Assembly (NCBI GenBank): GCA_009829735.1
Contig: CM020618.1
Span: 3,160,882-3,224,881, forward strand
Direction: 5' to 3'
DNA length: 64,000 nt
From: Pyropia yezoensis
Lineage: Eukaryota > Rhodophyta > Bangiophyceae > Bangiales > Bangiaceae
Below the pieces are notes generated by a model, which saw nothing but the letters and a program-made list of their open reading frames with translations, searched no databases and was not told where the DNA came from. Positions 2,868-35,873 of this stretch are shown one piece after another. A program made the translations under genes and the position numbers. Numbering within the stretch: the stretch's first letter is position 1; each line of letters starts with the position of its first letter.

Positions 2868-5315
2868 ATGTCCTATCCCCAGGTGCTTGAAGAGGAGGAA
2901 GACCTCCTGATCGGGGAGGAGATGGAGGACGACGCGCCTGTCGGTCCCGACGCCGCGCGTTACGGGGTGAGCTCGTCTGACGACGACGAGCCTGCGGTGT
3001 CCGTCCGTCTGTCGGCCGGAGGACTGTCGTCCGTGTGCAGCGGCACGACGGTGCCGTCGGCCGGAGGTCAACCCGGCGGTCAACCGCGCGTGGCGGCTTC
3101 TACCCCCTCTCTGCCGGCTGCCCGGATGGAGCCTGGTGCCGGTGCCGGCTCACCGCAGCTACCTCAAGATGGTCCGCCCTGCGGCGGAGGTGGCGACCCG
3201 CAGCCGACTCCGGCTGGTCAAGGTGGTCCGGGTGTCCGGGCGGTGACTCCTCGAGGCAGTCCCGACGTTGACGCGGGTGGTGGTGGCGGTGCGACACCCG
3301 GTGCGGCGGGTCAAGACGGTGCGGGTGTCCGCACGGCCGGGGCTCCGGCTCCGGAGGCTGTCCAAGTGCCTTCCCCTTCCGAGGCGGGGGCTACGCCGAC
3401 GGGTGGTGCCGGCGCCGGTACCATACCTGCGGTGCCGCGGGTGTCGAGCGGTCAAGACGCTCCTTCTCCCATGGCGGTTGACACCGGGAGTTACTCCGGG
3501 CGGGCGCCCGCCCTTCTTCTTCCTCCTCGGCCTCGTCCATCTCCGACGTCGGCCCCTCTGCCGGTGGTGCGTCCCCCGGCGCCCCCGATTCTTCCTGGTC
3601 CTGCCCGGGTTGCCCCGTTGGGTGGCGGCGTCGCCGTGGCGGCGGGTCAACCCGCCATGTCGGTGTCCGACTTGGTGGCTCGGGTTCGAGGCCTCACGGT
3701 GCAAGAGTCGATGGAGTCCGATGGGCGTATGCGGGTGGACTTCCACCTGGTGCATCCCCGTGGAGAATCCTCCCGGCGCGTCAAGGTGGACCCGAGCTGG
3801 GAGCGGGAGTTGGTGCGGCTGGTCAACCAGCCGAACGCGGTCCGGGTGGAACACCATTGGATCCTGAGTCAGCCGGACGACCGGCATGCGCAGCTCTGGC
3901 GCACCCGGGTGGGACGGGGTGAGGTCTACCTCGACCCCAACTTCGGGGTCTGCGACCTGATTGCCCCCGCGTTGCCGCGGGAGATTGACTACCCGGCTAG
4001 TGCTCGGGGGATTGCGGCGGCGGCGGAGCCGGTTGCGTTTGGGGAGACGGTGGGCAGTACCGGTCGGTATCCCGACTTTGACTACTACCCGGGGGTACCC
4101 CCGTATCTGTCGTTGACGGCTCCCTACCCGCCCATGGCGGGGTTGAAGTCGGCGTCGAGTTGGCGACGTAACCATGGTGTCATGGCGGATGCGTTCCGCA
4201 CGGATATAACGTGTGCGTTGCAGACCGGCAACGGTCGTGCTCCGGTATACACTCCCGTGCGCCCGCCGCTATGGCAGGAGGGGTGGGAACCCGCCCCTGC
4301 TTTCCGGTTTGACACCGGCTCCTGTCTTCGCTACTTCGAGAGTGTGTTGGCCTCGCGACCGGTCCACCCGTTGCAGGGTACCTTCACCCTTGAGGTTACC
4401 CTCGGGCAGGCTTCATCCTTCTTGCTGTCCGTCCGCCGGCAGGGTCGTCTGTTTCATCTTCCGACGGGTGTCCGTCGGCACATCGCGCAGTTGGGCGTGG
4501 ATCTGATAGCCGCCAAGACCGGGTTGGCCCGGGAGTTCGAAGCCCTGCTGGCTGTTCACGATGCCGTGAACTGGGCTGGGGTGTTGGCCCTTCCCCCGTA
4601 CCGGGACCCGCAGGCTGGGGCTTCCCCCTTGCCTCGTCACTCGTTGCGTGTCCGGCGTACTCAGCCGGGTGAGCCCAGTTGCCATGGGTGGGTATCCACC
4701 GAGGCTGTTGCTGACCTGGGTATTCCCATGGTTATCCATGACCCTCTTCAGGTCCTTGCTCCGTGGTTCGGTAACCCGATGCCGGCGGCGGTTGGCCGTC
4801 GTCCCCGAGAGTGGGGCTCTGTGGGTGGGGAGCGTGAGGTGTCCCGTCGTCGGGCGGAGTACCGCCGTGGTTACGGTGGAGCCCCTTCGGTAGGGTCCTA
4901 CCGGGCCTCGTATCAGGTGCCACCGGCTCCGGTGGTAGCCGTGTCGGCTCCTGTGGCTCCTCTGGCTGCGCCAGTGTCACCTCCCGCCCCTGTCCTACAT
5001 GACGGGGGTCCCCGTCTCTGGTATGAGGGCGTTGACGCCCTTGTTACCCGCGCAATGCGTGGGGGTCTCTCTGTTAGCTGGGGGGATATCCCCCCAGGTG
5101 CTGCGCTGGTTGGGTCAGCGCGTTGCTTCGGTGGCGTGCTGGACCGCCTCCAGAAAGCTCTGGAGGACGTGGAGGCTAGCCGCAGCACCCTCGTCCAGCT
5201 ATGCACCGAGGTAACTCGGGTGGTCGACCGTCGTGACGTTGCCGACCGGTGGAGCACGGAGGTCTACGCGCTTACGCGTGAGTGGCCTCCCTCGGGCAGT
5301 GGGTCTACCCACTGA
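2868..5315 (+). CDS. antisense ORF protein of family A (copy 1), unknown function
   Basis: This is an 815-residue protein encoded opposite to gag-pol, between pol and the 3' LTR. I chose the ATG at 2868 (MSYPQVLEEEEDLL) because the equivalent ATG exists in the other copies. The first 60 residues are strongly acidic. Residues of about 60-260 are Gly/Pro/Ala-rich and look disordered. From about 265 the sequence is globular, with WERELVRLVNQP, PPYLSLTAPYPP, SSWRRNHGV, RYFESVLAS, RRQGRLFHLP and LLAVHDAVNW. I recognise no known family and see no membrane segment or signal peptide. The motif series recurs in the family-B antisense protein. The protein does not overlap pol, so its open frame is not a by-product of pol conservation. 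Function is not known; a regulatory, Gag-accessory or structural role are all possible. Confidence 0.75.
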   Translation: MSYPQVLEEEEDLLIGEEMEDDAPVGPDAARYGVSSSDDDEPAVSVRLSAGGLSSVCSGTTVPSAGGQPGGQPRVAASTPSLPAARMEPGAGAGSPQLPQDGPPCGGGGDPQPTPAGQGGPGVRAVTPRGSPDVDAGGGGGATPGAAGQDGAGVRTAGAPAPEAVQVPSPSEAGATPTGGAGAGTIPAVPRVSSGQDAPSPMAVDTGSYSGRAPALLLPPRPRPSPTSAPLPVVRPPAPPILPGPARVAPLGGGVAVAAGQPAMSVSDLVARVRGLTVQESMESDGRMRVDFHLVHPRGESSRRVKVDPSWERELVRLVNQPNAVRVEHHWILSQPDDRHAQLWRTRVGRGEVYLDPNFGVCDLIAPALPREIDYPASARGIAAAAEPVAFGETVGSTGRYPDFDYYPGVPPYLSLTAPYPPMAGLKSASSWRRNHGVMADAFRTDITCALQTGNGRAPVYTPVRPPLWQEGWEPAPAFRFDTGSCLRYFESVLASRPVHPLQGTFTLEVTLGQASSFLLSVRRQGRLFHLPTGVRRHIAQLGVDLIAAKTGLAREFEALLAVHDAVNWAGVLALPPYRDPQAGASPLPRHSLRVRRTQPGEPSCHGWVSTEAVADLGIPMVIHDPLQVLAPWFGNPMPAAVGRRPREWGSVGGEREVSRRRAEYRRGYGGAPSVGSYRASYQVPPAPVVAVSAPVAPLAAPVSPPAPVLHDGGPRLWYEGVDALVTRAMRGGLSVSWGDIPPGAALVGSARCFGGVLDRLQKALEDVEASRSTLVQLCTEVTRVVDRRDVADRWSTEVYALTREWPPSGSGSTH

Positions 5316-5769
5316 GGAGTGCTATTGTTTGTGCGGGAGAGGGCCCCGGCAACCCTTATGGTAGCCGGGTAGTAGTGAGTATAAACTCATCCCCTTTGGG
5401 GGCATTGCTTGCCTCTGTTTGCTGCCCTGGGGAGTACCCCTTCTGGCTCAGTGGTGCCTTGCCTCCCGTCCAACTTCTTCCGGTAGGTTCATGCTTGGGG
5501 AGGTCATCCTCCCTCACTTGGTGTCTTGGCTTGGGGAGGTCATCCTCCCGTGTAAGCTCCCTAGTTACTTCGATATTATCGGAGTTAGCCTTTACCTTTA
5601 AGTTAACTTATTAAGGTTCAGGTTTTACTTAGTTACCTAAGCTTGGTTCGACTTAGAAACCTAAGTCTGATTTGACTTAGAAACCTAAGTCTGCCGTAAC
5701 CATGTCACACCCTACTTAGTAGGTATAAGCCTCACCCCCCAGCAGCCGAAGTCGGTGTCGGTTGGGTTG
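5316..5769. promoter_or_regulatory. hairpin-rich junction between convergent antisense ORF and pol
   Basis: These 454 bp separate the stop of the antisense ORF from the stop of pol. They hold two copies of the perfect hairpin GGGAGG-TCAT-CCTCCC (5498-5513 and 5534-5549) and two 24-bp tandem units with the palindrome ACTTAG-AAAC-CTAAGT (5651-5666 and 5675-5690). A CCCC-TTT-GGGG palindrome lies near 5390-5405. No ORF is supported. By position it could hold the 3' ends and polyadenylation signals of both transcripts. Confidence 0.55.
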
Positions 5770-9934: not shown

Positions 9935-9942
9935 CCTTCCTC

Positions 9943-11156: not shown

Positions 11157-11217
11157 ACCGTACCGGGTCGTAGCCGTCGACGGCTTGTGGGCGGCGGGGG
11201 ACTCTGCACCCGTTATC

Positions 11218-13657
11218 ATGTCCTATCCCCAGGTGCTTGAAGAGGAGGAAGACCTCCTGATCGGGGGAGGAGATGAGGACGACGCGCCTGTCGGTCCCGA
11301 CGCCGCGCGTTACGGGGTGAGCTCGTCTGACGACGACGGCCTGCGGTGTCCGTCCGTCTGTCGGCCGGAGGACTGTCGTCCGTGTGCAGCGGCACGACGG
11401 TGCCGTCGGCCGGAGGTCAACCCGGCGGTCAACCGCGCGTGGCGGCTTCTACCCCTCTCTGCCGGCTGCCCGGATGGAGCCTGGTGCCGGTGCCGGCTCA
11501 CCGCAGCTACCTCAAGATGGTCCGCCCTGCGGCGGAGGTGGCGACCCGCAGCCGACTCCGGCTGGTCAAGGTGGTCCGGGTGTCCGGGCGGTGACTCCTC
11601 GAGGCGGTCCCGACGTTGACGCGGGTGGTGGTGGCGGTGCGACACCCGGTGCGGCGGGTCAAGACGGTGCGGGTGTCCGCACGGCCGGGGCTCCGGCTCC
11701 GGAGGCTGTCCAAGTGCCTTCCCCTTCCGAGGCGGGGGCTACGCCGACGGGTGGTGCGGCGCCGGTACCATACCTGCGGTGCCGCGGGTGTCGAGCGGTC
11801 AAGACGCTCCTTCTCCCATGGCGGTTGACACCGGGAGTTACTCCGGGCGGGCGCCCGCCCTTCTTCTTCCTCCTCGGCCTCGTCCATCTCCGACGTCGGC
11901 CCTCTGCCGGTGGTGCGTCCCCCGGCGCCCCCGATTCTTCCTGGTCCTGCCCGGGTTGCCCGTTGGGTGGGCGGGCGTCGCCGTGGCGGCGGGTCAACCC
12001 GCCATGTCGGTGTCCGACTTGGTGGCTCGGGTTCGAGGCCTCACGGTGCAAGAGTCGATGGAGTCCGATGGGCGTATGCGGTGGACTTCCACCTGGTGCA
12101 TCCCCGTGGAGAATCCTCCCGGCGCGTCAAGGTGGACCCGAGCTGGAGCGGGAGTTGGTGCGGCTGGTCAACCAGCCGAACGCGGGTCCGGGTGGAACAC
12201 CATTGGATCCTGAGTCAGCCGGACGACCGGCATGCGCAGCTCTGGCGCACCCGGTGGGACGGGGTGAGGTCTACCTCGACCCCAACTTCGGGGTCTGCGA
12301 CTGATTGCCCCCGCGTTGCCGCGGGAGATTGACTACCCGGCTAGTGCTCGGGGGATTGCGGCGGCGGCGGAGCCGGTTGCGTTTGGGGAGACGGTGGGCA
12401 GTACCGGTCGGTATCCCGACTTTGACTACTACCCGGGGGTACCCCGTATCTGTCGTTGACGGCTCCCTACCCGCCCATGGCGGGGTTGAAGTCGGCGTCG
12501 AGTTGGCGACGTAACCATGGTGTCATGGCGGATGCGTTCCGCACGGATATAACGTGTGCGTTGCAGACCGGCAACGGTCGTGCTCCGGTATACACTCCCG
12601 TGCGCCCGCCGCTATGGCAGGAGGGGTGGGAACCCGCCCCTGCTTTCCGGTTTGACACCGGCTCCTGTCTTCGCTACTTCGAGAGTGTGTTGGCCTCGCG
12701 ACCGGTCCACCCGTTGCAGGGTACCTTCACCCTTGAGGTTACCCTCGGGCAGGCTTCATCCTTCTTGCTGTCCGTCCGCCGGCAGGGTCGTCTGTTTCAT
12801 CTTCCGACGGGTGTCCGTCGGCACATCGCGCAGTTGGGCGTGGATCTGATAGCCGCCAAGACCGGGTTGGCCCGGGAGTTCGAAGCCCTGCTGGCTGTTC
12901 ACGATGCCGTGAACTGGGCTGGGGTGTTGGCCCTTCCCCCGTACCGGGACCCGCAGGCTGGGGCTTCCCCCTTGCCTCGTCACTCGTTGCGTGTCCGGCG
13001 TACTCAGCCGGGTGAGCCCAGTTGCCATGGGTGGGTATCCACCGAGGCTGTTGCTGACCTGGGTATTCCCATGGTTATCCATGACCCTCTTCAGGTCCTT
13101 GCTCCGTGGTTCGGTAACCCGATGCCGGCGGCGGTTGGCCGTCGTCCCGAGAGTGGGGCTCTGTGGGTGGGGAGCGTGAGGTGTCCCGTCGTCGGGCGGA
13201 GTACCGCCGTGGTTACGGTGGAGCCCCTTCGGTAGGGTCCTACCGGGCCTCGTATCAGGTGCCACCGGCTCCGGTGGTAGCCGTGTCGGCTCCTGTGGCT
13301 CCTCTGGCTGCGCCAGTGTCACCTCCCGCCCCTGTCCTACATGACGGGGGTCCCCGTCTCTGGTATGAGGGCGTTGACGCCCTTGTTACCCGCGCAATGC
13401 GTGGGGGTCTCTCTGTTAGCTGGGGGGATATCCCCCCAGGTGCTGCGCTGGTTGGGTCAGCGCGTTGCTTCGGTGGCGTGCTGGACCGCCTCCAGAAAGC
13501 TCTGGAGGACGTGGAGGCTAGCCGCAGCACCCTCGTCCAGCTATGCACCGAGGTAACTCGGGTGGTCGACCGTCGTGACGTTGCCGACCGGTGGAGCACG
13601 GAGGTCTACGCGCTTACGCGTGAGTGGCCTCCCTCGGGCAGTGGGTCTACCCACTGA
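11218..13657 (+). pseudogene. antisense ORF of family A, copy 2, broken by clustered small indels near the gap
   Basis: This corresponds to 2868-5315. The ATG at 11218 and the C-terminus (stop at 13657) are present. Many single-base indels at 11260-12450 and one near 13147 scatter the protein over three frames. The downstream part, from RRNHGVMADAF on, reads cleanly except for the break near 13147. As the lesions cluster at a contig edge, they are probably sequencing errors. Confidence 0.75.
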
Positions 13658-14111: not shown

Positions 14112-17100
14112 TTACAGTAGGCGTCGTCGCCTCATGTACGGCATGAGGAGTTGGCGGGGTATATTTGCCGCCTGTTCCCAGGTGGGTGAGTCGTATCCGA
14201 CCCACATAACCTTGACGTACCAGGGTCCTGGTAGGTCCGGGTCGGTGTGTCCGACCACGCTCTCTACTTGGTATGGAATCCCATCCGGTCCCACCGGGTT
14301 ATCTGACCGGTGGGTTGTAAGAGCTTCATGTAGCAACCCAGCCGGTACCGGCTGAGGCTGTTCCGGCATCGGAGCTGGTGTGACGTCATTCATGCTGATG
14401 CGTTGAATCTCCGTATCGGAGTGTAAGATAATAGAGTGGTCATCTCTGTGGAGGATCTGGTACGGTCCCTTGACCGGTTGCATGAGCTTGTTCCCTCGGA
14501 ACTTCTGGTGTCTGATATAGACCCAGTCACCTGTCATCAGGGTAGCGTTGCGCACCCGTAGTCGGGCGTCGAAGTTCTTCTTATACCGAAGTTGTGTTCT
14601 GTCAAGGGCACCCTTGAGCTTAGGAATCATCCACGATAGCTTGGCCAACCAAGCTAGGTGGATGCGTTCGGCGGGTCGGCCCTTCGGTGTATCATACCGA
14701 GTGCACCTGCCGGGTGGCAGCGTCAAGTTACCGACGCCTAGTGGCATGACCCACTCCAGCGGAGCAATGTTTGTGCTCCGATGTGGCCTGGCATTGTATG
14801 CCAGGGTGAGTACGGACAGAAGCCTGTCCCAAGTGTTCGTGTGCTCGGCCACGTAGCACTGAAGCATCTTTACGATGGTGCGGTTGAACCGCTCCACCTG
14901 CCCGTTGGACTGCGGGTGGTAGTCGGATGCCCGACGTGGTTCGATACCGAACATGCCCAGGACCTTAGTGCAGAATGCCGACGTAAGGTTTGCTCCGTTA
15001 TCGGAGAGGAGTTGCTTCATGACTCCGTATGCACTGATCCAGTGGTCAACCACTGCGTTCATGATCGTGTATGCCGTATCATTCGGGATGGCTGCCGCTC
15101 TTGACAGCTTAGTGAAGCGGTCAGACATGACCAGGATGTACCTGTTCCCTTCTTCCGTTATCGGAAGTGGCCCGAGTATGTCGATAGCGACTTGCTCGTT
15201 GGGCCCATCAGGTGGGAATAGCTTCATGGCAGACGCCCGCCTATGTAGACTAATGCGGTTACGTGCACAGGGGTGGCATCCCCTTACGTGGTCGACCACG
15301 TCGACGGCCATTGCTGGCCAGTAGAAGAACCTTCGCATTGCTGCGAACATACGTGAACCCCCCGGGTGTCCGGCTGTAGGGTTCTCATGTTCTCGTTTCA
15401 TGACGGCTTGCCGTAAGGACACGGGAACCACGACTTGATGTCGTCCATCGGCGGGTGCCCGCCGGTATATGAGTCCGTCTTCGTTCTCGGAGAAGATGCC
15501 GGCCGTACCGGCCAGGAGGTTAGCACGATGACGTCTACAGTCATCGTCGTTGGCTTGTGCCTCGCGGAAGTCCGCGAGAGTCAGTGGGCACGCAAGGTGT
15601 GCCATGGTATGGTCAGCCATACCCTGGGTAGCATTACCCACCATGCACACCGGTACTACCGGGATGTCCTCGTCCACCGGGCGGGTATCCCCGCTCGGGG
15701 TGTCGAGTCGAGACAACGCGTCTCCGAGGTGGTGGGTTGACCCAGCCTTATACACCGTGCGGTAGTCGTGCTCGGCCATCTTCAGCCTCCATCGGGCTAG
15801 CCTCCCATGGCTATCGGAATCCTTGTCACCAAGGTTGAGGAGCCATCGTAGGGGTTCGTGGTCGGACCTCACGATGAACCTGGAGCCCTCCAGGTATGGA
15901 CGGAGCAGTTGCACTGCCCATATAACTCCGAGGCATTCACGCTCGGTGGCACTATAGTTCCGCTCAGCCGGGTTGAGTGTCCGGCTGAAGTACCCTACCG
16001 GACGTAGGTCCGGGATAACGTTGTCGGTACCTATCAACGTCTCTCCCTGTAACAGGGTGCATCCCACTTGTGTATCACACGCATCGACATCGATGACGAA
16101 GGTGCCCCGTCTATGCGGTAACGCAAGGACGGGTGGGGCTAGTAGGGCTCGCTTCAGCGACTCGAATGCCTCCTCTTCGCTAGGCGAAGGGGGTTGGAGT
16201 ACCTTGGGTAAGGTACTGCTCGTAAGAACCGTTAACGGTTTAGCTATCCGAGCGAAGTCCTTGACGAACCGTCGGTATACATTGCACATTCCCAGGAAGC
16301 TCTTGAGCTGCGTCTGGGTGTTAGGGAACCGGGCATCCCGGAGTGCCCGGGTATTGGCTTCGAGTACCCCTAGTTTACCAGGGGTTATCTGGTGGCCCAG
16401 ATACTCGACCGTCTGTTGGAAGAAGGCGCACTTCTTCAGACGCAGGGTTACCCCGGCGTTCCTCAAGAGGGTGAGTACCTCGTCAACATGTTGTACATGG
16501 TCATCCATGTTACGCGAGAAGACGATGACGTCATCGAGGTACACTAGGCAGTTACGCCACTTCACCCCCGACAGTATGATGTCGATAGCCCGCTGGAATG
16601 TAGCGGGGGCGTTGGACAATCCGAAGGGCATCCTTAGGAACTCGTACACTCCACTGTGACAGACGAATGCCGACTTGGGGATATCCTCGTCCGCCACCGG
16701 GATCTGCCAGTATCCGGCATTGCAGTCGATGGTGGTAAACACCGTAGCTTCCCCCAGGGAGTCGATGCATTCATCCATCCTTGGTAAAGGGTATGAGTCC
16801 TTCTTGGTAACCAAGTTGAGGCGTCGATAATCGATGCAAAACCGAGGGGTTTGATCCTTCTTCGGTACAATAACGACTGGGGCACCCCACTCCGACATCG
16901 AAGGTCGGATCACCTTAGCTTCACTCATCCTCTTCACTTCTCCATCAGCGATCTCTCGTTGCATAGGTCCCGCTCGGTGCGGTTGTGACCGGGTGGGGCG
17001 TGCGCCTGGTACCAGGTCAATACGATGTTGGGTTGCCCCAATGGTACCCAAGGCCCCGCCTGTCCACATGACGTCATGCTTTCTTAGCATCCGTCGTACC

Positions 17101-18278
17101 CCTTCGGCTACCGAAGGGGGAAGGTGGTCGAGGTCAGCCTCGGCCAGTGCCTTCAAGGCCTCTTGGTCCTTTGGCGGCAGGTCCGCCGGAGCCGCCAATG
17201 GGTTAGGCTTCCCGTCATCGGGTTGCTGTCGCTCGGTGGTCTCGGCGACCGCCAGCACCTCAAGTGGTTCCACTTGACCTTCCTTATCAGGGGTAAGGAT
17301 ATCTCCTTCGTAGAGTTCGGCAATCCCGAGGATAGTTCCCTTCGGGAGGGTGACTGCCTTACGGCGATAGTTCGCCATCACTAGGAGGGACGACCCTCCT
17401 GCTGGGAGGTCTATGAGACCGTTGGCCATGGTCAACCCATGGCGCTTGTACGTCCGTAGGTTGGACGGGACTCTGCAGATGCCTGCGAGGTCGCAGTTAA
17501 CCGGGAGGACTGTCTCTGACAACGGCTCAAAGCGAGTTCGCTTGGCCAACCGAAGTGTCTTCGGCTCGACGCTTGCGTACACCTCAGCCACGTTAACGTG
17601 GCTTCCTTGTAGCGTCAGGTCCCTGACGATAGCCGTGTGTCCTCGCTTCGTCCCGTCGGCTTCTTGAAGCTCGACGGTCCTCCGGCCTGGCCGGATTGCA
17701 TCAACGTGAACGTTGATGAAGGTGCACCCCAGTATGCAGGGCACCGATAGCGTTTCACATACCAGGAAGTCAACTTCCGTGGTGAGATCCCCGATGGTAA
17801 CCTGCAGCGACATCGCTGCGGTCGTACGAATGAGTCGACCATTCGCGTCCTTGATGGTGGGTCCCCGAGTCACTCTGACTCGTGGAAGCCACTTGTCCGG
17901 GAGGGTATCCTTCCGGATAAGGTTGGGTCCAGCCCCTGTGTCCAGTACAGGGTAGTACGATCGTGTCGACTTGGGGTCAACCCCCAGTGTGGCTGATACC
18001 TTGAAGTTCTCCAAGGTAAACAACACATGTCCTACACCGATATCCGGTGTAGCTCGGGCATCCTGAACAGGGCCCTTGTCTGGTTCAACGTGACGGGGCT
18101 TCCCGTCCACTCCTCCCAACCTTGGAGGTTGGTCATCAATCCCCTGACGCCGTGTCGTCGGGGCCGGAAGGTGTACCCGGGGGTTGATGCGGCGTCGGCT
18201 CAACCGCGCTCTCCGTGGGGCTTTCCCCGCGGTACTCCGGGGTGGCTTGCTTGGGTAACCCCAGCGCCCCCCGGTCAT
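14112..18278 (-). CDS. pol: family-A Pol polyprotein (protease-RT-RNase H-integrase-chromodomain)
   Basis: This is 1388 intact residues, made as a -1 frameshift extension of Gag. An ATG at 18278 lies 8 nt after the gag stop and is in the pol frame. Protease active site DTGAG is at about 113-117. RT has the VVIVPKKD and FCIDYRRLN motifs and the catalytic YLDD at about 578. RNase H begins near 725 (DACDTQVG). Integrase has a HHCC zinc finger at about 960-1005 (HEN...H...CHPC), then catalytic Asp in AIDILGPLP (about 1032), Asp in LLSDNGA (about 1093) and Glu in GQVERF (about 1129). A GPYQIL (GPY/F) motif follows. A C-terminal chromodomain (about 1333-1388, with WYVKVMWVGYDSPTWE) is expected to target heterochromatin. 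Domain order is that of Ty3/gypsy chromoviruses. Confidence 0.95.
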   Translation of the reverse strand: MTGGRWGYPSKPPRSTAGKAPRRARLSRRRINPRVHLPAPTTRRQGIDDQPPRLGGVDGKPRHVEPDKGPVQDARATPDIGVGHVLFTLENFKVSATLGVDPKSTRSYYPVLDTGAGPNLIRKDTLPDKWLPRVRVTRGPTIKDANGRLIRTTAAMSLQVTIGDLTTEVDFLVCETLSVPCILGCTFINVHVDAIRPGRRTVELQEADGTKRGHTAIVRDLTLQGSHVNVAEVYASVEPKTLRLAKRTRFEPLSETVLPVNCDLAGICRVPSNLRTYKRHGLTMANGLIDLPAGGSSLLVMANYRRKAVTLPKGTILGIAELYEGDILTPDKEGQVEPLEVLAVAETTERQQPDDGKPNPLAAPADLPPKDQEALKALAEADLDHLPPSVAEGVRRMLRKHDVMWTGGALGTIGATQHRIDLVPGARPTRSQPHRAGPMQREIADGEVKRMSEAKVIRPSMSEWGAPVVIVPKKDQTPRFCIDYRRLNLVTKKDSYPLPRMDECIDSLGEATVFTTIDCNAGYWQIPVADEDIPKSAFVCHSGVYEFLRMPFGLSNAPATFQRAIDIILSGVKWRNCLVYLDDVIVFSRNMDDHVQHVDEVLTLLRNAGVTLRLKKCAFFQQTVEYLGHQITPGKLGVLEANTRALRDARFPNTQTQLKSFLGMCNVYRRFVKDFARIAKPLTVLTSSTLPKVLQPPSPSEEEAFESLKRALLAPPVLALPHRRGTFVIDVDACDTQVGCTLLQGETLIGTDNVIPDLRPVGYFSRTLNPAERNYSATERECLGVIWAVQLLRPYLEGSRFIVRSDHEPLRWLLNLGDKDSDSHGRLARWRLKMAEHDYRTVYKAGSTHHLGDALSRLDTPSGDTRPVDEDIPVVPVCMVGNATQGMADHTMAHLACPLTLADFREAQANDDDCRRHRANLLAGTAGIFSENEDGLIYRRAPADGRHQVVVPVSLRQAVMKREHENPTAGHPGGSRMFAAMRRFFYWPAMAVDVVDHVRGCHPCARNRISLHRRASAMKLFPPDGPNEQVAIDILGPLPITEEGNRYILVMSDRFTKLSRAAAIPNDTAYTIMNAVVDHWISAYGVMKQLLSDNGANLTSAFCTKVLGMFGIEPRRASDYHPQSNGQVERFNRTIVKMLQCYVAEHTNTWDRLLSVLTLAYNARPHRSTNIAPLEWVMPLGVGNLTLPPGRCTRYDTPKGRPAERIHLAWLAKLSWMIPKLKGALDRTQLRYKKNFDARLRVRNATLMTGDWVYIRHQKFRGNKLMQPVKGPYQILHRDDHSIILHSDTEIQRISMNDVTPAPMPEQPQPVPAGLLHEALTTHRSDNPVGPDGIPYQVESVVGHTDPDLPGPWYVKVMWVGYDSPTWEQAANIPRQLLMPYMRRRRLL

Positions 18279-20470: not shown

Positions 20471-20676
20471 AGTCACAATCAGTCCACCGACGCAACGATC
20501 ACCACGAATAAGAGAGCGAGGGGATAGATTGGGGAGAGTAACAGTATGTCACAGTCACAGGTAAAATCTCAACACAATCGATCAGGTCGCAACACCACGA
20601 GTACAAGAAAAGGACCGGATCCCTATCCGTGTGCCAGGGCCGAAGACGGCGTCACCACAAGGGTGACGGAAACCCG

Positions 20677-20695: not shown

Positions 20696-21057
20696 TGTAG
20701 CACAATAGGAATCCGTCGCACGTCCACTCTCAGGGAACACTCACCAAGGGGGATCGGCACCAACGTCACCGGGAGGCCAAGGTTGCTGTCCTTGGAGCGC
20801 AAGCCACGGGACCAAGATGGGAGCCCAAATGGGAGGGGTTTGTTGTTCTACCTTGGCCGGCGGTGGATTCGCCACCGGCCCCCTCGTTATAAACCCTCGG
20901 AGACACTACTAACTACCCTCCACCCCAAGATGCAAGTCCCTCTGGTCATACGTAACTTATAGATACCGTGACCAGCTCGGACTCTCAAATTGAAGTTAAG
21001 GATTAGAAGTAGCCCCCCTGATATTAGGGTCACAATACGGACAACCATATTGCTACA
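20696..21057 (-). repeat. family-A 5' LTR (362 bp)
   Basis: It is the same as the LTR at 1921-2282, with TGTAGCACAA and TTGCTACA ends. It is followed by GCACG at 21058-21062, the right copy of the target-site duplication. Confidence 0.92.
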
Positions 21058-21239: not shown

Positions 21240-21708
21240 TGTGGCAGTATTGACCCCCAGGTAGGGGGGCAACACGTGCCATGCAAGGGGCGGCAGGCCA
21301 CTAGCCTGATCCGTTCCTCCCCCTGCATTTGGGTCCGTATTCCCTAAGTTTGGGATAGTTAGCTTAGTAGTAAATCCAACTTGGATTTGAGGGTTTTCTG
21401 CATTTATCGTCTTGAATTTTCGTGTGGCCCGGTGGGCAGGTGCTGGGGTGGGAGATTCTGAGTGGCGAGATTCTGAGGGGACCCTGGGGGGATAAGGGGA
21501 GGGACAGCGGGGCTTGGCCCTGCGTCCCCGTCCCGACCAAGAAACTGTTGGACCACACACCATCCTCTTGTTTGTCAGTGGGGGGTTTGCCCCACAACAG
21601 GGACAGAGTGTGTGCGACCTGCACTTTTTCCGGTTCCCCCGACACGGGAGGCAGCCCTCGTACACCGCCCCAACTTGGGTGCCGTGTGTGTAATTGGTTT
21701 TTGCCACA
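21240..21708 (+). repeat. B1 5' LTR, subtype alpha (469 bp)
   Basis: It starts TGTGGCAGTATTG and ends TTTTTGCCACA. Diagnostic subtype-alpha sequences are CTGCGTCCCC, GGGGGGTTTGCC and GTGCCGTGTGTGTAA. Confidence 0.92.
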
Positions 21709-21710
21709 TT

Positions 21711-23773: not shown

Positions 23774-23817
23774 CCGTTGGAGCTGGCCGTCCGAAGCTCA
23801 CAACGGCAGCCTCGGCC
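23761..23817 (+). promoter_or_regulatory. -1 frameshift cassette of B1: GGGAAAC plus predicted pseudoknot
   Basis: GGGAAAC is at 23761-23767, in the phase G GGA AAC GAA TGA. The 6-nt spacer GAATGA is followed by stem 1: CCGTTG (23774-23779) with CAACGG (23801-23806), continued by GAGCT (23780-23784) with AGCTC (23795-23799). Loop GGCCG (23785-23789) can pair with CGGCC (23813-23817) as an H-type pseudoknot. A -1 slip enters the pol frame at CGA ATG ACC. Confidence 0.75.
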
Positions 23818-26800
23818 AAGTGGGTCAAGAGGACGAACCAACCGTGCCGGATACTGCGGCGACCTAAGGGAGTCCGCCCACCTCGGGTAGGACTCCCCAA
23901 GAACGTAAACCCACGTCGGGTCATCGCGGTGCTGACGGGTGAGAACTTCCGGGTGGCTGGACGGGTGCAACTAGCCCCCGGCCGTGCCTGCTGTGCCCGT
24001 ATCGTACTTGATACCGGGTCAGGAGCCTTCTTGATACGCAAATCGCTATTACCAAAGGAGATCAAGCTCCAACGCTGGAAGTCTAAAGCTGACCATCTGA
24101 TCGATATCAATGGTGGGGTACTTCCCATCGTTGGTGCCGTGACCCTACCACTAGGTTGGGGACCCATGAGGTCGACGTGACCTATGAAGTAGTCGAGAAT
24201 ACATCGGTACCCCTGCTTCTGGGTACCCCTTATGTTGTTACACAAGTGCCTTTGATTTGTGGCCCTGAGTATTGGGTCAGGTTGATGAATGGGGAGACCA
24301 TCCCCATCCTTGGTAAGGGAAAGTCTGTGGCTCCTGTCACAGTCTCACAGTCGAAGCCTGTTTGTTCTGTGAGGAAAGGGTTTACTGCTACCCTGCGTTT
24401 AGCCCGTAAAGTCACGTTGCCCCCCAACTCGGGTGACGCACGTTGACGTTGTAACTGATTATACGGGGAACGGGTTGGTGCACCCCTACCCCCGTCTTGC
24501 TCGCAAGCACCAAGTGCATGTTGCCCTTGGCACGATGGACTCCAAAGCTGGAGTCCCGTGGAGGATCCAGGTTACGAACCTGAGCTCGTCGCCCAAGTAC
24601 TTCAAGTCGGGAGCCAAGTTCGGCTATATCGACCAACACGAGGGACCGGTAGTAGCGGTCACCCTCAACGCGGGCGCAAGTAGCGACCCGAAGTCCGGAA
24701 AGGAGAAGCATCAAGCCAAGTCGGCCGCCTCTCCTCGGCCCCATGTGAACATGGAGGGTGTCCTACCCAGGTTGAGGGTTCAAGTTGAACGCCTCTTGGA
24801 CCAATATCACAAGTTGTGGGATGGTCAATTGGGACTCATGAGAGCCACCCAACACCGGATCGAGTTGAAACCCGGTGCACCCCCCATACGCCAACAACCG
24901 TATGGGGGAGGGCCCCGTTCAAGGGCCCTCGTTAAGGAGCAAGTTGCTCGCATGGAGGCCCTCGATGTGATCGAGGCCAGCAACGCCGAGTGGGCGAGCC
25001 CGGTGGTTATCGTCCCCAAAGTTGATGGCACCCCCCGGTTCTGTATCGACTACCGTAAGCTCAACGAGAGCACGGTGAAGGACAGTTATCCCCTACCCAG
25101 GATGGACGACTGTCTGGACTCTCTGGGGGAGGCAAACGTGTTCTCTACCCTAGACTGTAACGCGGGGTATTTCTCGATGTGATCGAGGCCAGCAACGCCG
25201 AGTGGGCGAGCCCGGTGGTTATCGTCCCCAAAGTTGATGGCACCCCCCGGTTCTGTATCGACTACCGTAAGCTCAACGAGAGCACGGTGAAGGACAGTTA
25301 TCCCCTACCCAGGATGGACGACTGTCTGGACTCTCTGGGGGAGGCAAACGTGTTCTCTACCCTAGACTGTAACGCGGGGTATTGGCAAATTCCCATTGCC
25401 CCGGAAGACAGGCATTAAACTACCTTTACCTGTCACTGTGGTACCTACCAGTGCAAGCGACTACCGTTTGGACTGTGCAACGCGCCGGCAACTTTCCAGC
25501 GCGCTATGGACATGATTCTGGCCGGAGTACGGTGGCAGATCTGTCTCGTGTACCTAGACGATATCATTGTGTTCTCCCGAAGTCCGGAGGAGCACATTGG
25601 CCATCTTGGCCAGGTGTTCAAGCTACTTGCTGACGCCGGTGTGTCACTGAAGGCGAGTAAGTGCCACCTCTTCACTCAGGAGGTGGAATAGTTGGGACAT
25701 GTTGTCCGTGCGGGGCGCCTCAGTGTTAACGAGAAGAACTTGAGGGCCATTCGTAAGGCTGAGTACCCCCGGACCCAGACCCGGATAAGGAGCTTCCTCG
25801 GGATGTGTATCGTGTACCGACGTTTCACCAAGGGCTTCGCCAAGGTGGCGAAACCGTTGAATGAGTTAGTGAGCTCAACGCTACCAAAGAACCTGCCTCC
25901 CCCAAGTCGGGTGGCGCAGGAATCTTTTGAGACTCTTCGGGACCTTCTGCTGAAGCCCCCTATCCTGGCTATTCCCAGGTTGGGAGGCCACTACATCCTG
26001 GATGTGGACGCTAGCTACGACCAACTTGGTTGTGTGTTGCTTCAGCAGCAGCCGGACAAGGAGTACTTGCCGGTGGGATACTTCAGCAAGGGGCTGAACT
26101 CGGCGGAGAAGAACTATGGAGTCACCGAGTTAGAAGGACTCGCAGTGGTGTGGGCGGTGACGTCACTTCGTCACTACCTAGAGGGTGAGAAGTTCCTCAT
26201 CCGCTGTGACCACCGCGCGTCGCAGTTCATCTTTAAGACGGATTGCACGAACACACGCCTCAACAGGTGGAGGGTGCGACTGGCACCCTTCAACTTTGAT
26301 ATTGAGTACCGACCTGGCAGGCAACGTGCCCTGGCCGACGGCCTTTATCGGGTACCTACCGAGGGGCTGGACACTAACTCAGTCGATGAGGACATTCCCA
26401 TCGTGGGGATTGTCACGCGCTCGGGGCAGGCGTTGGACCCCGAGGCGCCAGGGAACAAGAAGTACTTGCCCCTGTCTCTGGGCGAGGTGGTGAAGGCCCA
26501 GGCCGAGGACCCCTTCTGCAAGTCGCAGAGGGATACACTGGATACGGTGGCGGAGACGCGGTTCTTTATCGGAGACGATGGCCTCCTCTTGAGGAGGGGG
26601 GTATTCCAGGGGACCGAACAACTTGTCGTCCCCGCATCCCTCAAGGACAGTATCCTTGAGAGGGAGCATAACGCTCCCACAGGTGGACACCTGGGGTCTA
26701 GTAAACTGCACCAGACCCTGAGGACCAGGTACTACTGGCCGTCCATGGTGGTGGACATCTACAGTTGGGTGGCTGCCTGCACAAGTTGTGCACAGAACCG

Positions 26801-27965
26801 TCTGATGGAACGGCGGCCTACTACGGCTATGCTACTGTTCCCGGCCAAGGAGCCCTTTGCCGCGTTGGCAATGGACATCCTTGGGCCACTGCCAGTGACC
26901 GAGGAGGGCAACCAGTACCTCCTGGTTATCTGTGACCGCTTCACGAAACTTACGCGAGCGATCCCTCTGGCAGAGGTCACGGCCATGTCGGTCGCGTCAG
27001 CCTTCCTAGATCACTGGGTTGCCGCGTATGGCATCCCGGATAGTACACTATCGGACAATGGACCGCAATTTGCGTCTGCACTGTTTCAGGGAGTGCTGGA
27101 TATGTTGGGGGTGCGGGCAAACTATGCCACCCCCTACCACCCACGAACTAATGGGCAGGTGGAGCGCTTCAACAAAACTATTGTTAGGCAGCTGCGCCAC
27201 TATGTGAGTGAGCACGTGAAAACGTGGGACCAATACATTTCTATTCTTACCACTGCCTACAATTCGCAGGTTCACTCATCTACCGGGGAAGTACCCCTCG
27301 CTTTTGTGACCCCCCGTCGCGTGCGGTCTATTGCCGTGCGGCGGCCGCTCCCAACTAGGGAGGATGGTGGCAGTACGCCTACTCCTACTGAGAGTAAGGC
27401 GGAGTTCGCTGCTAGGCTTGAAAACCTCATCCCTAAAGTCAGGGCTGAGATGGACAAAGCACAAAAGCGCTACAAGCGTACCTTTGACAAAAAAGTGCGC
27501 AACGCCAAGCATGTCCCCGAGCAGGGTGACTGGGTACTGGTTCACTCACACACCCCAACTGGGGGTAAGTTGGTATTCTAGACGAAGCGGCCGTACCAGG
27601 TCCTTCGTACTGATGGGCGGCGCTTCACCATCGAAAGTGACGATGGGGTCCGCACAGTGAACGGACAGGACGTGGTCAAAGTTGCACCACAGCCTGCAGG
27701 CGACCCAGCTTGGGCGCGTGCGTTGGAAGCGTGGCGCCTGCCCTCGCTGCCTGCGGCCAAACAGGGCCCGCAGGAGTACGTTTTCGATATGTTCATTGAC
27801 CACGGATGGGATGAGGACACTAACCGCCTCATGTTGAGGGTGCGTTGGTTCGGCTATAGGGCCAAGGATGCTACGTGGGAATATGTGGAGGACCTTCCCG
27901 CTGAGAAGGTCCGGGCCTACTGTGCCCGGAATGAGATAGACCCTCACAGCCCTCCCTCAACGTGA
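23770..27965 (+). pseudogene. pol: B1 Pol with chromodomain, multiply broken
   Basis: Domains in order are: protease with DTGSG (24010-24024); RT with VVIVPKVDG, FCIDYRKLN and YLDD (25551-25562); RNase H (LDVDASYDQLG, about 26000); integrase HHCC (about 26660-26790) and DDE in AMDILGPLP, LSDNGPQ and GQVERF (about 26870, 27050, 27160); and a C-terminal chromodomain (about 27770-27945, MLRVRWFGYRAKDATWEYVE). Lesions shared with B2 are a frame change near 24430, TAA 25416-25418 (where K is usual), TAG 25689-25691 (where family A has Y in VEYLGH) and TAG 27579-27581. B1-only lesions are a 1-bp deletion near 24151 and a 212-bp tandem duplication in RT. Confidence 0.9.
24961..25384 (+). repeat. 212-bp tandem duplication inside B1 RT
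   Basis: Positions 24961-25172 repeat at 25173-25384 with only the junction base differing. As 212 is not a multiple of three, it shifts the frame and duplicates the segment from LDVIEASNAEW to LDCNAGY. B2 does not have it. Confidence 0.92.
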
Positions 27966-28076
27966 GGGAAGGCCGAGCAACAGTGCCAAGAGAGTGCTTC
28001 AAGTCGAAGTGGTACGCAGAGTGGCTTTTAACTACAGCCCTAACCCTCACACTCTCACAACAAAGGCAGCTGCCAA

Positions 28077-29747
28077 CTAGGCATGCATGCTGGACTCTCC
28101 AACCCCACGGCCCTCGCCCTCACGTGGAGGCGAGCGACGCGACCCCCGGCGATAACGCTCCCCACCAGTCGGAGGGGCCGGCGGCTCCAAGTCGGACCCG
28201 TCGCGCCCCTCACGGTCGCGCAAGTGGCGACGACCGCGGCTACCCTTCTGCTTAGTCTTGCGCGCAAGTTGGCCACGCAGACGCCGGACCGACTCCGACT
28301 CTGACGGGGTAGAGGACTCCGAGACGGAGTAAGACAACTCGTCTTCCGACATGGAGGGAGAGCGCCGCGAACGACGGCGACGACGGCGAGGAGGCGAGTA
28401 TGCCCGGCTCGCCCGGCGTTTGCCACGCCCAAGTAGGGCTGGTTGGGGCACGATAGCCCCGATGCGAGCCAACTTGGCCGTCATAAACCCCGCCACGGAC
28501 TCGCAACTCGCGGTCGCCACCGCAGTACGAACGCGCTCCTCAAGTTGAGGAGTCTCGGAAGCTTGAAGGGTTGCGGTCGACGCGGCCAACCAGGAATTGG
28601 TGCGCACCAACGTGGTGATCATCATCTCGGAGGTCAGAGGCGTGGCCGGTAACACCAACTTGGGATAAACCGTCAGAAGAGTGGCCCCCAAGTTGGGGGA
28701 CACCGGGGTGGACGACTCAACGGCCACGCTTATCGGGATGTCCCCGTGCGGCTGGTAGGGGACAGGAGGAAGCGGAGGGGCACGCCGAGGTGGCGGGACC
28801 CGGGTGTAACTGCGACCCCGACTTGGGGCCCCCGCAGTGGGTTGAGTCATATGGTCATCATGTGAGGGCACGGCCATAACTATGGCCTTGTCCGGGGGTG
28901 GCGCAGTGTGGCGATCCACCCCCGGGGCATACGGGTAGTCCCCGATGCCCAACCCCTCTCGTAGGACCACACGGCCGTCATGAAGTTCACGAGCGACCCA
29001 TAAGAACTGGCTAAGTGCGCCATCATCCTTGGGCCCGCGGGTGGGGCGGCGCGACTTGTGCTCGATGCTCTCCCACTCGATGAACGTGTGGAGATGGAGC
29101 ATCTCCTCAAGTAGAGTGAGTTGTCCTGATGAGCACCCCTCAGCAACTAGCTGAGAAGTGAGCTGTTCCAAACCTTGGATAAGCCGGAGGGGAAGATGCC
29201 AGAGCATCCCCCGCCGCTGGACACAAGACACCCAGGTCGACATGACCTCGAGGAGCCACTGGGTGGCCAACATGGCCCACACCACGTGATCAGGGCCAGC
29301 CGTCAACATGACGGAACCGAAGTGGTCAAGCAACCGTGGCAGCAACGCCGGGAACCCATAGGGGACCTCAACTTGAGGCCACCACTCGGGCATCTTGGGG
29401 TAGTACTGCTCCTTGCTGGCAGCAGACTGCTGAGGAGACTCAAGTTGAGCCGAGGTCACCAAGTAGGGACCTCGCCGGAAGTCCTTCTCCATCCGCACAT
29501 CAAAGTGATGAGTGTGCGGATCGGCCTCGTGAAGGTACGGGGGGCGAGTTGCCACCGCGTCCCAAGTAAAGGTCGGCAAGTCGCCGGGACCCGGGGTAGT
29601 TCCTCCGCGGTCCACCATGGCCTTTGCCCGCTGAACGTCTTCGACTTCGTCATCGTCCAGGAAGGCAAACTTGTCCGTCCTGAAGCCGGCAGGGAACCCG
29701 ACCCTACGGGGATACTTCTCCCGTAGGCGGTCCCATACCCGATCCAT
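28077..29747 (-). CDS. antisense ORF protein of family B (B1), unknown function
   Basis: This is 556 residues from the first in-frame ATG at 29747 (MDRVWDRLREKYPRR). The frame stays open to about 29950 without an ATG. The protein lies between pol and the 3' LTR on the opposite strand, converging on pol with about 110 bp between stops. The core has PPYLHEADPH, DFRRGPYLV, YYPKMPEWW, LLDHFGSVML, RRGMLWHLP and LHTFIEW. The C-terminal 110 residues are Arg/Ser-rich (RRRRRRSRRSPS type) with an acidic patch, resembling an RS domain or a nucleic-acid-binding tail. The motif series matches the family-A antisense protein. It is nearly identical to the B2 copy, and both are free of stops although pol in the same elements is full of them. 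No known family is recognised. Confidence 0.75.
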   Translation of the reverse strand: MDRVWDRLREKYPRRVGFPAGFRTDKFAFLDDDEVEDVQRAKAMVDRGGTTPGPGDLPTFTWDAVATRPPYLHEADPHTHHFDVRMEKDFRRGPYLVTSAQLESPQQSAASKEQYYPKMPEWWPQVEVPYGFPALLPRLLDHFGSVMLTAGPDHVVWAMLATQWLLEVMSTWVSCVQRRGMLWHLPLRLIQGLEQLTSQLVAEGCSSGQLTLLEEMLHLHTFIEWESIEHKSRRPTRGPKDDGALSQFLWVARELHDGRVVLREGLGIGDYPYAPGVDRHTAPPPDKAIVMAVPSHDDHMTQPTAGAPSRGRSYTRVPPPRRAPPLPPVPYQPHGDIPISVAVESSTPVSPNLGATLLTVYPKLVLPATPLTSEMMITTLVRTNSWLAASTATLQASETPQLEERVRTAVATASCESVAGFMTAKLARIGAIVPQPALLGRGKRRASRAYSPPRRRRRRSRRSPSMSEDELSYSVSESSTPSESESVRRLRGQLARKTKQKGSRGRRHLRDREGRDGSDLEPPAPPTGGERYRRGSRRSPPREGEGRGVGESSMHA

Positions 29748-30356: not shown

Positions 30357-30825
30357 TGTGGCAGTATTGACCCCCAGGTAGGGGGACAACACGTGCCATG
30401 CAAGGGGCGGCAGGCCACTAGCCTGACCCGTTCCTTCCCCTGCATTTGGGTCCGTATTCCCTAAGTTTGGGATAGTTAGCTTAGTAGTAAATCCAACTTG
30501 GATTTGAGGGTTTTCTGCATTTATTGTCTTGAATTTTCGTGTGGCCCGGTGGGCAGGTGCTGGGGTGGGAGATCCTGAGTGGCGAGATTCTGAGGGGACC
30601 CTGGGGGGATAAGGGGAGGGACAGCGGAGCTTGGCCCTGCTTCCCCGTCCCGACCAAGAAACTGTTGGACCACACACCATCTTCTTGTTTGTCCGTGGGG
30701 GGATTGCCCCACAACAGGGATAGAGTGTGTGCGACTTGCACTTCTTCCGGTTCCCCCGACACAGGAGGCAGCCCTTGTACACCGCCCGAACTTGGGCGTC
30801 GCGTGTGTGAGAGGGTTTTGCCACA
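30357..30825 (+). repeat. B1 3' LTR, subtype beta (469 bp)
   Basis: It starts TGTGGCAGTATTG and ends TTTTGCCACA. It differs from the B1 5' LTR at the diagnostic sites (CTGCTTCCCC, GGGGGGATTGCC, GTCGCGTGTGTGAGAGGG) and instead matches the 5' LTR of B2. Confidence 0.92.
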
Positions 30826-33122: not shown

Positions 33123-33592
33123 TGTGGCAAAAACCACTTACGCAGACGGCACCCAAGTTCGGGCGGTGTACAAGGGCTGCCTCCCGTGTCGGGGGAACCG
33201 GAAGAAGTGCAAGTCGCACACACTCTATCCCTGTTGTGGGGCAAACCCCCCCCTGACAAACAAGAGGATGGTGTGTGGTCCAACAGTTTCTTGGTCGGGA
33301 CGGGGACGCAGGGCCAAGCTCCGCTGTCCCTCCCCTTATCCCCCCCAGGGTCCACTCAGAATCTCGCCACTCAGAATCTCCCACCCCAGCACCTGCCCAC
33401 CGGGCCACACGAAAATTCAAGACGATAAATGCAGAAAACCCTCAAATCCAAGTTGGATTTACTACTAAGCTAACTATCCCAAACTTAGGGAATACGGACC
33501 CAAATGCAGGGGGAGGAACGGATCAGGCTAGTGGCCTGCCGCCCCTTGCATGGCACGTGTTGTCCCCCTACCTGGGGGTCAATACTGCCACA
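33123..33592 (-). repeat. B2 3' LTR, subtype alpha (470 bp)
   Basis: On the plus strand it begins TGTGGCAAAAACC and ends CTGCCACA. Its diagnostic bases (reverse complements of CTGCGTCCCC and GTTTGCC) match the B1 5' LTR and the solo LTR at 56276, not the 5' LTR of its own element. Confidence 0.9.
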
Positions 33593-34202
33593 CTCCCCTC
33601 TCCTCAGGTCCGACCGACCCGGTCGGCCCTGTGAGGGGGCGCGTAAACGCACGTCTCGGCGTTGGGGGCGCGACTTGCTGTCCCCTCTTGAGTACGAAAC
33701 GCGGATGTAAAGGCGGTCACGTGGACCGCCCCTCTCCTCAAGCTTGCCCACTAGGCAGCTTGCTCTCTCCGGTTCGCACTTCACCATCACCACCACCTCC
33801 CCTTCACCGTCCACTGGGCCGCCCCACGCTGGGGAGGCCACCCATCTACCCACGATCCGAGTCCCCCTCAGGTCGAGGCGGGTCTCGTGCCGCTGTAGCC
33901 AGGGCGTCTCTCCCCAACTCGGGGAGAGCCATGGTGACCCCGGGGGTGGAGACTGACTCTCTGGATGAACGTATGGAGGACACCTCCTACGGTGCAGCGC
34001 CCGCCGGAACTTAGGCGGGGGCTCCGCGATCGCTCCGGGGGATGGGATTCCCGCGTCACCCGGCTTTGGGTTGACGGCGGGATCTCCCCCGGAGGCGGGC
34101 CGCGTCACCCCACGTGAGGCCCTGGGGCGGTGGTTTTACCCCGCTTGGCCTCTATATGAGGAGGGGTTGACTGTTCTTCGCTGTGGCCGACGTGGCGCAG
34201 CG
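33593..34202. other. B2 leader between 3' LTR and antisense ORF
   Basis: It is equivalent to 29748-30356. The polypurine tract GAGGAGAGGGGAG (minus) abuts the LTR. A 27-residue acidic frame starts MVTPGVETDSLDERMED at 33931 and stops at 34014. Confidence 0.45.
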
Positions 34203-35873
34203 ATGGATCGGGTATGGGACCGCCTACGGGAGAAGTATCCCCGTAGGGTCGGGTTCCCTGCCGGCTTCAGGACGGACAAGTTTGCCTTCCTGGACGATGA
34301 CGAAGTCGAAGACGTTCAGCGGGCAAAGGCCATGGTGGACCGCGGAGGAACTACCCCGGGTCCCGGCGACTTGCCGACCTTTACTTGGGACGCGGTGGCA
34401 ACTCGCCCCCCGTACCTTCACGAGGCCGATCCGCACACTCATCACTTTGATGTGCGGATGGAGAAGGACTTCCGGCGAGGTCCCTACTTGGTGACCTCGG
34501 CTCAACTTGAGTCTCCTCAGCAGTCTGCTGCCAGCAAGGAGCAGTACTACCCCAAGATGCCCGAGTGGTGGCCTCAAGTTGAGGTCCCCTATGGGTTCCC
34601 GGCGTTGCTGCCACGGTTGCTTGACCACTTCGGTTCCGTCATGTTGACGGCTGGCCCTGATCACGTGGTGTGGGCCATGTTGGCCACCCAGTGGCTCCTC
34701 GAGGTCATGTCGACCTGGGTGTCTTGTGTCCAGCGGCGGGGGATGCTCTGGCATCTTCCCCCCCGGCTTATCCAAGGTTTGGAACAGCTCACTTCTCAGC
34801 TAGTTGCTGAGGGGTGCTCATCAGGACAACTCACTCTACTTGAGGAGATGCTCCATCTCCACACGTTCATCGAGTGGGAGAGCATCGAGCACAAGTCGCG
34901 CCGCCCCACCCGCGGGCCCAAGGATGATGGCGCACTTAGCCAGTTCTTATGGGTCGCTCGTGAACTTCATGACGGCCGTGTGGTCCTACGAGAGGGGTTG
35001 GGCATCGGGGACTACCCGTATGCCCCGGGGGTGGATCGCCACACTGCGCCACCCCCGGACAGGGCCATAGTTATGGCCGTGCCCTCACATGATGACCATA
35101 TGACTCAACCCACTGCGGGGGCCCCAAGTCGGGGTCGCAGTTACACCCGGGTCCCGCCACCTCGGCGTGCCCCTCCGCTTCCTCCTGTCCCCTACCAGCC
35201 GCACGGGGACATCCCGATAAGCGTGGCCGTTGAGTCGTCCACCCCGGTGTCCCCCAACTTGGGGGCCACTCTTCTGACGGTTTATCCCAAGTTGGTGTTA
35301 CCGGCCACGCCTCTGACCTCCGAGATGATGATCACCACGTTGGTGCGCACCAATTCCTGGTTGGCCGCGTCGACCGCAACCCTTCAAGCTTCCGAGACTC
35401 CTCAACTTGAGGAGCGCGTTCGTACTGCGGTGGCGACCGCGAGTTGCGAGTCCGTGGCGGGGTTTATGACGGCCAAGTTGGCTCGCATCGGGGCTATCGT
35501 GCCCCAACCAGCCCTACTTGGGCGTGGCAAACGCCGGGCGAGCCGGGCATACTCGCCTCCTCGCCGTCGTCGCCGTCGTTCGCGGCGCTCTCCCTCCATG
35601 TCGGAAGACGAGTTGTCTTACTCCGTCTCGGAGTCCTCTACCCCGTCAGAGTCGGAGTCGGTCCGGCGTCTGCGTGGCCAACTTGCGCGCAAGACTAAGC
35701 AGAAGGGTAGCCGCGGTCGTCGCCACTTGCGCGACCGTGAGGGGCGCGACGGGTCCGACTTGGAGCCGCCGGCCCCTCCGACTGGTGGGGAGCGTTATCG
35801 CCGGGGGTCGCGTCGCTCGCCTCCACGTGAGGGCGAGGGCCGTGGGGTTGGAGAGTCCAGCATGCATGCCTAG
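34203..35873 (+). CDS. antisense ORF protein of family B (B2), unknown function
   Basis: This is 556 residues from the ATG at 34203. It is nearly identical to the B1 protein; I find only two amino-acid changes in the 600-codon open frame, for example PPRL for PLRL. It has the same core motifs (PPYLHEADPH, DFRRGPY, HFGSVML, RRGMLWHLP) and the same Arg/Ser-rich tail ending GESSMHA. It converges on the remains of pol. Intact reading in both copies, beside badly broken pol genes, suggests recent spread, gene conversion, or selection on this ORF. Confidence 0.75.
   Translation: MDRVWDRLREKYPRRVGFPAGFRTDKFAFLDDDEVEDVQRAKAMVDRGGTTPGPGDLPTFTWDAVATRPPYLHEADPHTHHFDVRMEKDFRRGPYLVTSAQLESPQQSAASKEQYYPKMPEWWPQVEVPYGFPALLPRLLDHFGSVMLTAGPDHVVWAMLATQWLLEVMSTWVSCVQRRGMLWHLPPRLIQGLEQLTSQLVAEGCSSGQLTLLEEMLHLHTFIEWESIEHKSRRPTRGPKDDGALSQFLWVARELHDGRVVLREGLGIGDYPYAPGVDRHTAPPPDRAIVMAVPSHDDHMTQPTAGAPSRGRSYTRVPPPRRAPPLPPVPYQPHGDIPISVAVESSTPVSPNLGATLLTVYPKLVLPATPLTSEMMITTLVRTNSWLAASTATLQASETPQLEERVRTAVATASCESVAGFMTAKLARIGAIVPQPALLGRGKRRASRAYSPPRRRRRRSRRSPSMSEDELSYSVSESSTPSESESVRRLRGQLARKTKQKGSRGRRHLRDREGRDGSDLEPPAPPTGGERYRRGSRRSPPREGEGRGVGESSMHA

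Follow-up and report, generated by a model that had tools for sequence, protein, structure and literature searches.

The window analysed here is a stretch of 64,000 nucleotides (positions 3,160,882 to 3,224,881, forward strand, of contig CM020618.1) from the red alga Pyropia yezoensis, also named Neopyropia yezoensis. The genome comprises 107.5 Mb, with three large contigs of 43.6, 34.3 and 29.4 Mb. Two families of long terminal repeat (LTR) retrotransposons, here called A and B, lie in the window, and each carries, between pol and the 3' LTR, a long open reading frame (ORF) that runs antisense to gag-pol. Here we describe the products of these antisense accessory ORFs as one protein family, which recurs in two further element families and in Pyropia vietnamensis. 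According to the available parts of PMC7423979, LTR retrotransposons are the main class of repeats in P. yezoensis and gene prediction was run on the repeat-masked genome. Accessory ORFs of this sort would consequently tend to drop out of the gene set.

Family A is represented by the following features.

1921..2282, minus strand: family A 3' LTR, 362 bp, flank GCACG
2868..5315, plus strand: family A antisense accessory ORF, copy A1, 815 codons, open
11218..13657, plus strand: family A ORF, A2, a second reading of A1 from the other contig end, frame broken several times
14112..18278, minus strand: family A pol with protease, reverse transcriptase, RNase H, integrase and weak chromodomain (profile matches)
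18287..20476, minus strand: family A gag-like ORF, weak zinc-knuckle match (E 0.072, below cut-off)
20696..21057, minus strand: family A 5' LTR, 362 bp, identical to 1921-2282, flank GCACG
59792..62161, plus strand: family A antisense ORF, copy A3, single in-frame stop at codon 423

Reverse transcriptase, RNase H and integrase follow each other in gypsy order in the family A pol, as in Ty3/gypsy elements, and a chromodomain-like stretch lies at the C-terminus of the integrase (E 0.019, under the curated cut-off). The accessory ORF is antisense to pol and separated from it by 454 nt, without overlap, as a preliminary description of this DNA had stated. The same description counted three family A copies, of which only A1 is an open one. 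The stretches 2808-10656 and 11157-18999 are 99.7% identical and are separated by a run of 500 N at 10657-11156. The 5-bp duplication GCACG with identical 362-bp LTRs is found only at the outer ends, at 1921-2282 and 20696-21057, and A1 and A2 are therefore best taken as one element. The simplest reading of the N-run is an assembly artefact, in which overlapping contig ends were left unmerged and a single family A element mimics a near-tandem pair. A2 is best read as an error-rich contig end and not as an independent copy, and A3 carries the one stop listed above.

Two copies of family B lie in opposite orientation at 21240-30825 (B1) and 33123-42202 (B2).

21240..21708, plus strand: B1 5' LTR
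25692..27581, plus strand: B1 pol piece with RNase H and integrase, ending in a TAG stop
27582..27965, plus strand: B1 pol tail with chromodomain-like stretch, after the TAG stop
28077..29747, minus strand: family B antisense ORF, copy B1, 556 codons from ATG, open, upstream start missing
30357..30825, plus strand: B1 3' LTR
33123..33592, minus strand: B2 3' LTR
34203..35873, plus strand: family B antisense ORF, copy B2, 556 codons from ATG, open, upstream start missing
41734..42202, minus strand: B2 5' LTR

The scanned family B pol piece contains RNase H and integrase, and a chromodomain-like stretch, in the correct place at the integrase C-terminus, scores 23.5 bits (E 5.3e-5), just under the curated cut-off of 25.1. 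Again pol and antisense ORF do not overlap, with 111 nt between them. That the ORF is intact while pol is broken was correctly noted for B1 and B2 but does not describe the family: the C-terminal piece of pol is free of stops in each of the best 121 of 4749 candidates, dozens of which sit in open frames of 1380 codons. At most family B loci (25 of 30) an ATG located 91 codons upstream opens a longer ORF of 647 aa, a start absent from B1 and B2. Stop-free ORFs make up 60 of the best 78 of 3489 candidate matches in family B and 52 of the best 55 of 37165 in family A, fractions that are biased upward because the best-scoring matches were taken. At 21235-42207, the two 5-bp flanks differ within each of B1 and B2, but every flank is identical to one of the other copy in a crosswise arrangement (CACTG and ACTGC, read along the element strand). 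This would be expected if exchange between B1 and B2 had inverted the stretch that separates them, either in the living alga or during assembly.

The proteins of families A and B are homologous. BLASTP aligns them with an E of 5e-9 and 24% identity over 230 residues. In two tests with 1000 shuffles each, no shuffle reached their Smith-Waterman score of 123; for the core alone, two tests with 2000 shuffles each had the same outcome. A profile-profile match between the two had been set beforehand as a test of the proposed relationship, and it proved significant, both directly (hhalign E 1.5e-5, probability 79.6) and through a third family, C, described below. Families B and C are closely connected (BLASTP 2e-43; hhalign 7.5e-38), and A is connected to C by profile (E 2.2e-6, probability 89). 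The pairwise similarity of A and C is weak (BLASTP 2.5e-4), and their Smith-Waterman score of 95 stays within the range of the shuffles (maximum 119). The ordered motifs noticed in the preliminary description recur with the spacing of 19 residues from PPYL to SSWRR (A) or KDFRR (B) in both proteins. The distance from PPYL to HLP, given there as 118-122 residues, is 119 in A and 115 in B, an agreement to within a few residues.

Full-length proteins have about 640-815 aa. Their N-terminus is variable and of low complexity, the core is conserved and predicted to be mainly helical, and the tail varies again. The N-terminus of A is acidic, and the tail of B is rich in arginine and serine and strongly basic. 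No strongly hydrophobic span is present, the largest mean hydropathy over 19 residues being 1.2 to 1.5. Searches of Pfam, NCBIfam and PHROGs with the accessory proteins gave nothing credible; the weak hits to DUF6214 in A (E 0.02-0.04, under its cut-off) and to PHROG 8447 in B (0.23) were regarded as chance. A search of PDB sequences gave no match at E 0.001, and two matches of A1, at 0.07 and 0.38, were likewise attributed to chance. Phage records searched with one family C-like protein yielded no match. A structure model of the family A protein, built from five sequences, was useless (predicted local distance difference test, pLDDT, 29.7). For the family C core (361 residues, 16 sequences) the model reached a pLDDT of 71.3 and a predicted template modelling score of 0.73, the five models spanning pLDDT 54-71, and with moderate confidence it is predicted to be mainly helical. 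This conserved core has no counterpart in the structure libraries searched: Foldseek returned nothing at E 0.001 from PDB and BFVD, and VIA-align found none among the 74 chains compared. Titles and abstract openings, mostly outside the subscription literature, contained no red-algal antisense accessory case. The protein family may thus, as first proposed, be called undescribed within these collections.

Collecting homologues from other chromoviruses, as the preliminary description had suggested, extended the family. Starting from 150 H2C2 matches, the 3' regions of eight gypsy integrase loci were taken. Seven of these belong to a clade outside A, B and C, and family C was reached through the remaining one, L047. 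The family C copy L051 has an antisense frame of 846 codons, with 638 aa from ATG. Adjoining this element is an open frame of 391 codons (L051 3315-4487, minus strand), which by eye we take to resemble a DDE transposase. Two other copies, L052 and L053, share the same deletion of core and C-terminus and keep pol frames of 1346 codons; together with L047, all three of these loci lack the accessory core. A fourth family, D, is known from one decayed copy, L054, with about 50-55% identity to C and a pol tail on the strand opposite the accessory gene. Three protein database searches returned 1, 8 and 9 matches, of which P. vietnamensis contributed 6 of the 8 and 4 of the 9; the two-species searches scored 7987-7994 candidates sharing most words. 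A-like relatives are 34-53% identical, and C-like relatives 44-52% in P. vietnamensis and 35-99% among the remaining matches.

The orientation of the gene is constant. In family B, pol lies antiparallel to the accessory ORF in 29 of 30 loci. For family C, the best 92 of 4940 candidates were used for pol and the best 150 of 1625 for the core; 101 of these 150 were kept, the 49 excluded being at the level of family B (~39-43% identity) or, in three cases, lying at two D-like places. Core and pol pair within 3 kb in 70 instances, and in all 70 they are on opposite strands, about 850 nt apart. Among the matches listed, 31 cores are without a listed pol and 22 of the 92 pol matches without a listed core. 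L047, L052 and L053, the three of these 22 that were inspected, do lack it. When 12 family B copies were chosen by pol, the ORF was intact in nine, and one copy each had a stop, a frameshift or a truncation. An antisense position between pol and the 3' LTR, in multiple copies (all or part of the ORF in 12 of 12 pol-chosen B copies, and a core beside 70 of 92 pol matches in C), is that of the ORFs classed as aORF-3R.

Integrase and accessory protein group the families alike. Integrase identity is 64% between B and C, 44% between A and B and 40% between A and C, compared with 26-34% to the outside clade. The integrase tree reads (A,(B,C)), with A, B and C joined at 100/100 and B and C at 96/93, and with a long-branch warning for A. 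The accessory proteins diverge in the same order but faster, B and C being 31% identical. Neither tblastn with the three proteins (A, B and C) nor five profiles found a relative within 5 kb past the integrase site in the seven outside-clade copies. This absence applies to a single clade, the seven copies being closely related to one another. The positive controls (L047, L051-L054) were all recovered; the family A profile contributes nothing to this search, because alone it recovers no control. The matching grouping, together with outside-clade copies that have no relative, supports the proposal that the gene has been retained since the families split.

Purifying selection on the antisense frame is clear in families B and C and weaker in A. 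Thirty family B loci were picked by their ORF protein score, and seven were removed for broken, absent or differently long stretches. In the remaining 23 the ORF has a ratio of nonsynonymous to synonymous substitution rates (omega) of 0.228, and the pol piece has one of 0.269. The other frames have values of 1.2-2.0, except for the wobble-sharing frame of the opposite strand (0.287). Choice by pol among the 121 matches gave 14 regions, of which 12 were used; two broken or truncated copies were kept out, and the other ten give 0.098, and B1 against those ten gives 0.170. Eight family C copies, the seven besides L051 hand-picked and mostly from the lower part of the list, have 638 codons each and no stop, with an omega of 0.295 and single values against L051 of 0.21-0.37. 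When the observed changes were placed at random, four C copies stayed stop-free in 0.9-15% of trials. Variable sites accumulate at third codon positions (118/84/227 in B, 102/55/174 in C). The gene in B and C is thus constrained to about the same degree as the pol of B. In family A, A3 against seven copies gives 0.47 over the whole length and 0.29 for the core; when these seven young copies are compared with one another the ratio is 0.50, and 0.82 in the N-terminal part. An omega well below 1 was thus borne out in B, in C and in the A core against A3, whereas young A copies reach only about 0.5. At synonymous sites B1 is about twice as distant from the other B copies in the ORF, at 0.136, as it is in pol, at 0.070, a hint that this copy may be a mosaic.

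The data directly establish homology across families, a constant antisense position, purifying selection and the existence of copies with an open pol and no gene core. Building on these sequence comparisons, we consider it probable that a clade of red-algal chromoviruses gained one antisense gene before A split from B and C, and that its protein acts as a nuclear regulator in trans. The gene, convergent with gag-pol between pol and the 3' LTR, would be expressed from its own antisense transcript. The protein may then enter the nucleus, as suggested by the basic arginine- and serine-rich tail of B and by the lack of a strongly hydrophobic span, and could serve as a regulatory accessory factor in transcription, RNA handling or the passage of DNA into chromatin. 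Since L052 and L053 keep a pol of 1346 codons but have lost the gene core, the gene seems dispensable in cis, and we infer that its product would act in trans. More tentatively, a protein of new fold, gained once, may have become a trans-acting antisense regulator, with full elements and pol-keeping deletion derivatives forming a helper-dependent community; this extended proposal is rather doubtful. If the regulator exists, it would be a regulatory gene in the style of retroviruses, found outside retroviruses and land plants.

A protein that counters host defence, for example RNA silencing or chromatin repression, instead of regulating the element's own cycle would also fit a gene that evolves faster than the integrase and has been lost by some copies. 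We regard this as unlikely, as the accessory protein resembles neither a known suppressor nor any known domain in the searches described and its conserved core is under steady purifying selection. It is quite improbable that the antisense RNA matters and not the protein, for instance by supplying double-stranded RNA through which the element is tuned. The convergent genes would suit such a role, which the available text of PMC7264820 discusses for plant elements, but changes concentrate at third codon positions and the out-of-phase frames have an omega of about 1.2 to 2.0. A role of the RNA can, moreover, coexist with one of the protein.

The position of the gene is that of env in retroviruses. 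An envelope-like or other structural particle protein is nevertheless very improbable, given that the gene lies on the opposite strand, that its product has no strongly hydrophobic span and that A and B possess separate gag-like ORFs; neither the sense orientation nor the membrane span of a retroviral envelope was found. Long frames may arise by chance in GC-rich DNA (61% over the 64-kb window) or as the shadow of a sense-strand gene, and in family A the opposite strand of the accessory ORF is itself open over 369 codons. Against this, protein similarity spans families and species, the longest open sense frame opposite the ORF in B1 has at most 191 codons, omega is low and random placement of changes left four C copies open in 0.9-15% of trials, so that we give this explanation hardly any credence. 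Human T-cell leukaemia virus (HTLV) has a regulatory leucine-zipper protein, HBZ, that is translated from antisense RNA of the 3' region of the element. No HBZ-like basic leucine zipper was matched by Pfam in the accessory proteins, which have no similarity to HBZ. For HTLV, an antisense promoter in the 3' LTR is described in the available part of PMC7264820.

Antisense ORFs at this position are present in Grande, RIRE2, Retand and Boty, with roles left undetermined in the available parts of PMC7264820 and PMC11963269. In Retand, of the plant Tat clade, antisense ORFs with the Transposase_28 domain (TRP28, PF04195) have a proposed regulatory role (available text of PMC11963269). Like the red-algal gene they are long, run against gag-pol in the interval from pol to the 3' LTR, and are lineage-wide; unlike it, they belong to a non-chromoviral lineage found, according to the same text, only in flowering plants, and a Pfam search gave no match to PF04195 in the accessory proteins. 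Gene23 of Grande in maize and the antisense ORF of RIRE2 in rice share position and strand with the red-algal gene, a likeness by description only. The Grande protein is reported to be nuclear and the gene to have its own promoter, and the available part of PMC7264820 does not describe these elements as algal or chromoviral. The brtn gene of the fungal element Boty, also compared by description only, likewise gives a gypsy element from outside the plants an additional gene in antisense orientation (PMC7264820, PMC8365987, as far as available). The eORF-3'R proteins of green plants belong to the same structural class; they are very heterogeneous, with 314 groups in gypsy, and their function has been questioned (available text of PMC6317226), whereas one red-algal protein family runs through four element families.

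Antisense accessory ORFs are thus already known, and it is this protein family and its host lineage that appear to be new. Here one antisense accessory gene, preserved by selection, can be traced across four families of elements and in two species, which suggests that neglected extra genes can have a real function. The natural deletion copies provide a built-in control and make the question whether antisense genes encode working proteins directly testable.

Some further observations concern the window itself. The primer-binding sites just inside the 5' LTR are nearly alike in A (20650-20695) and B (21709-21740). A solo family B LTR, flanked by CAGCT on each side, lies at 56276-56744, and diverged copies of a unit of about 92 bp form a tandem array at 45293-46344.

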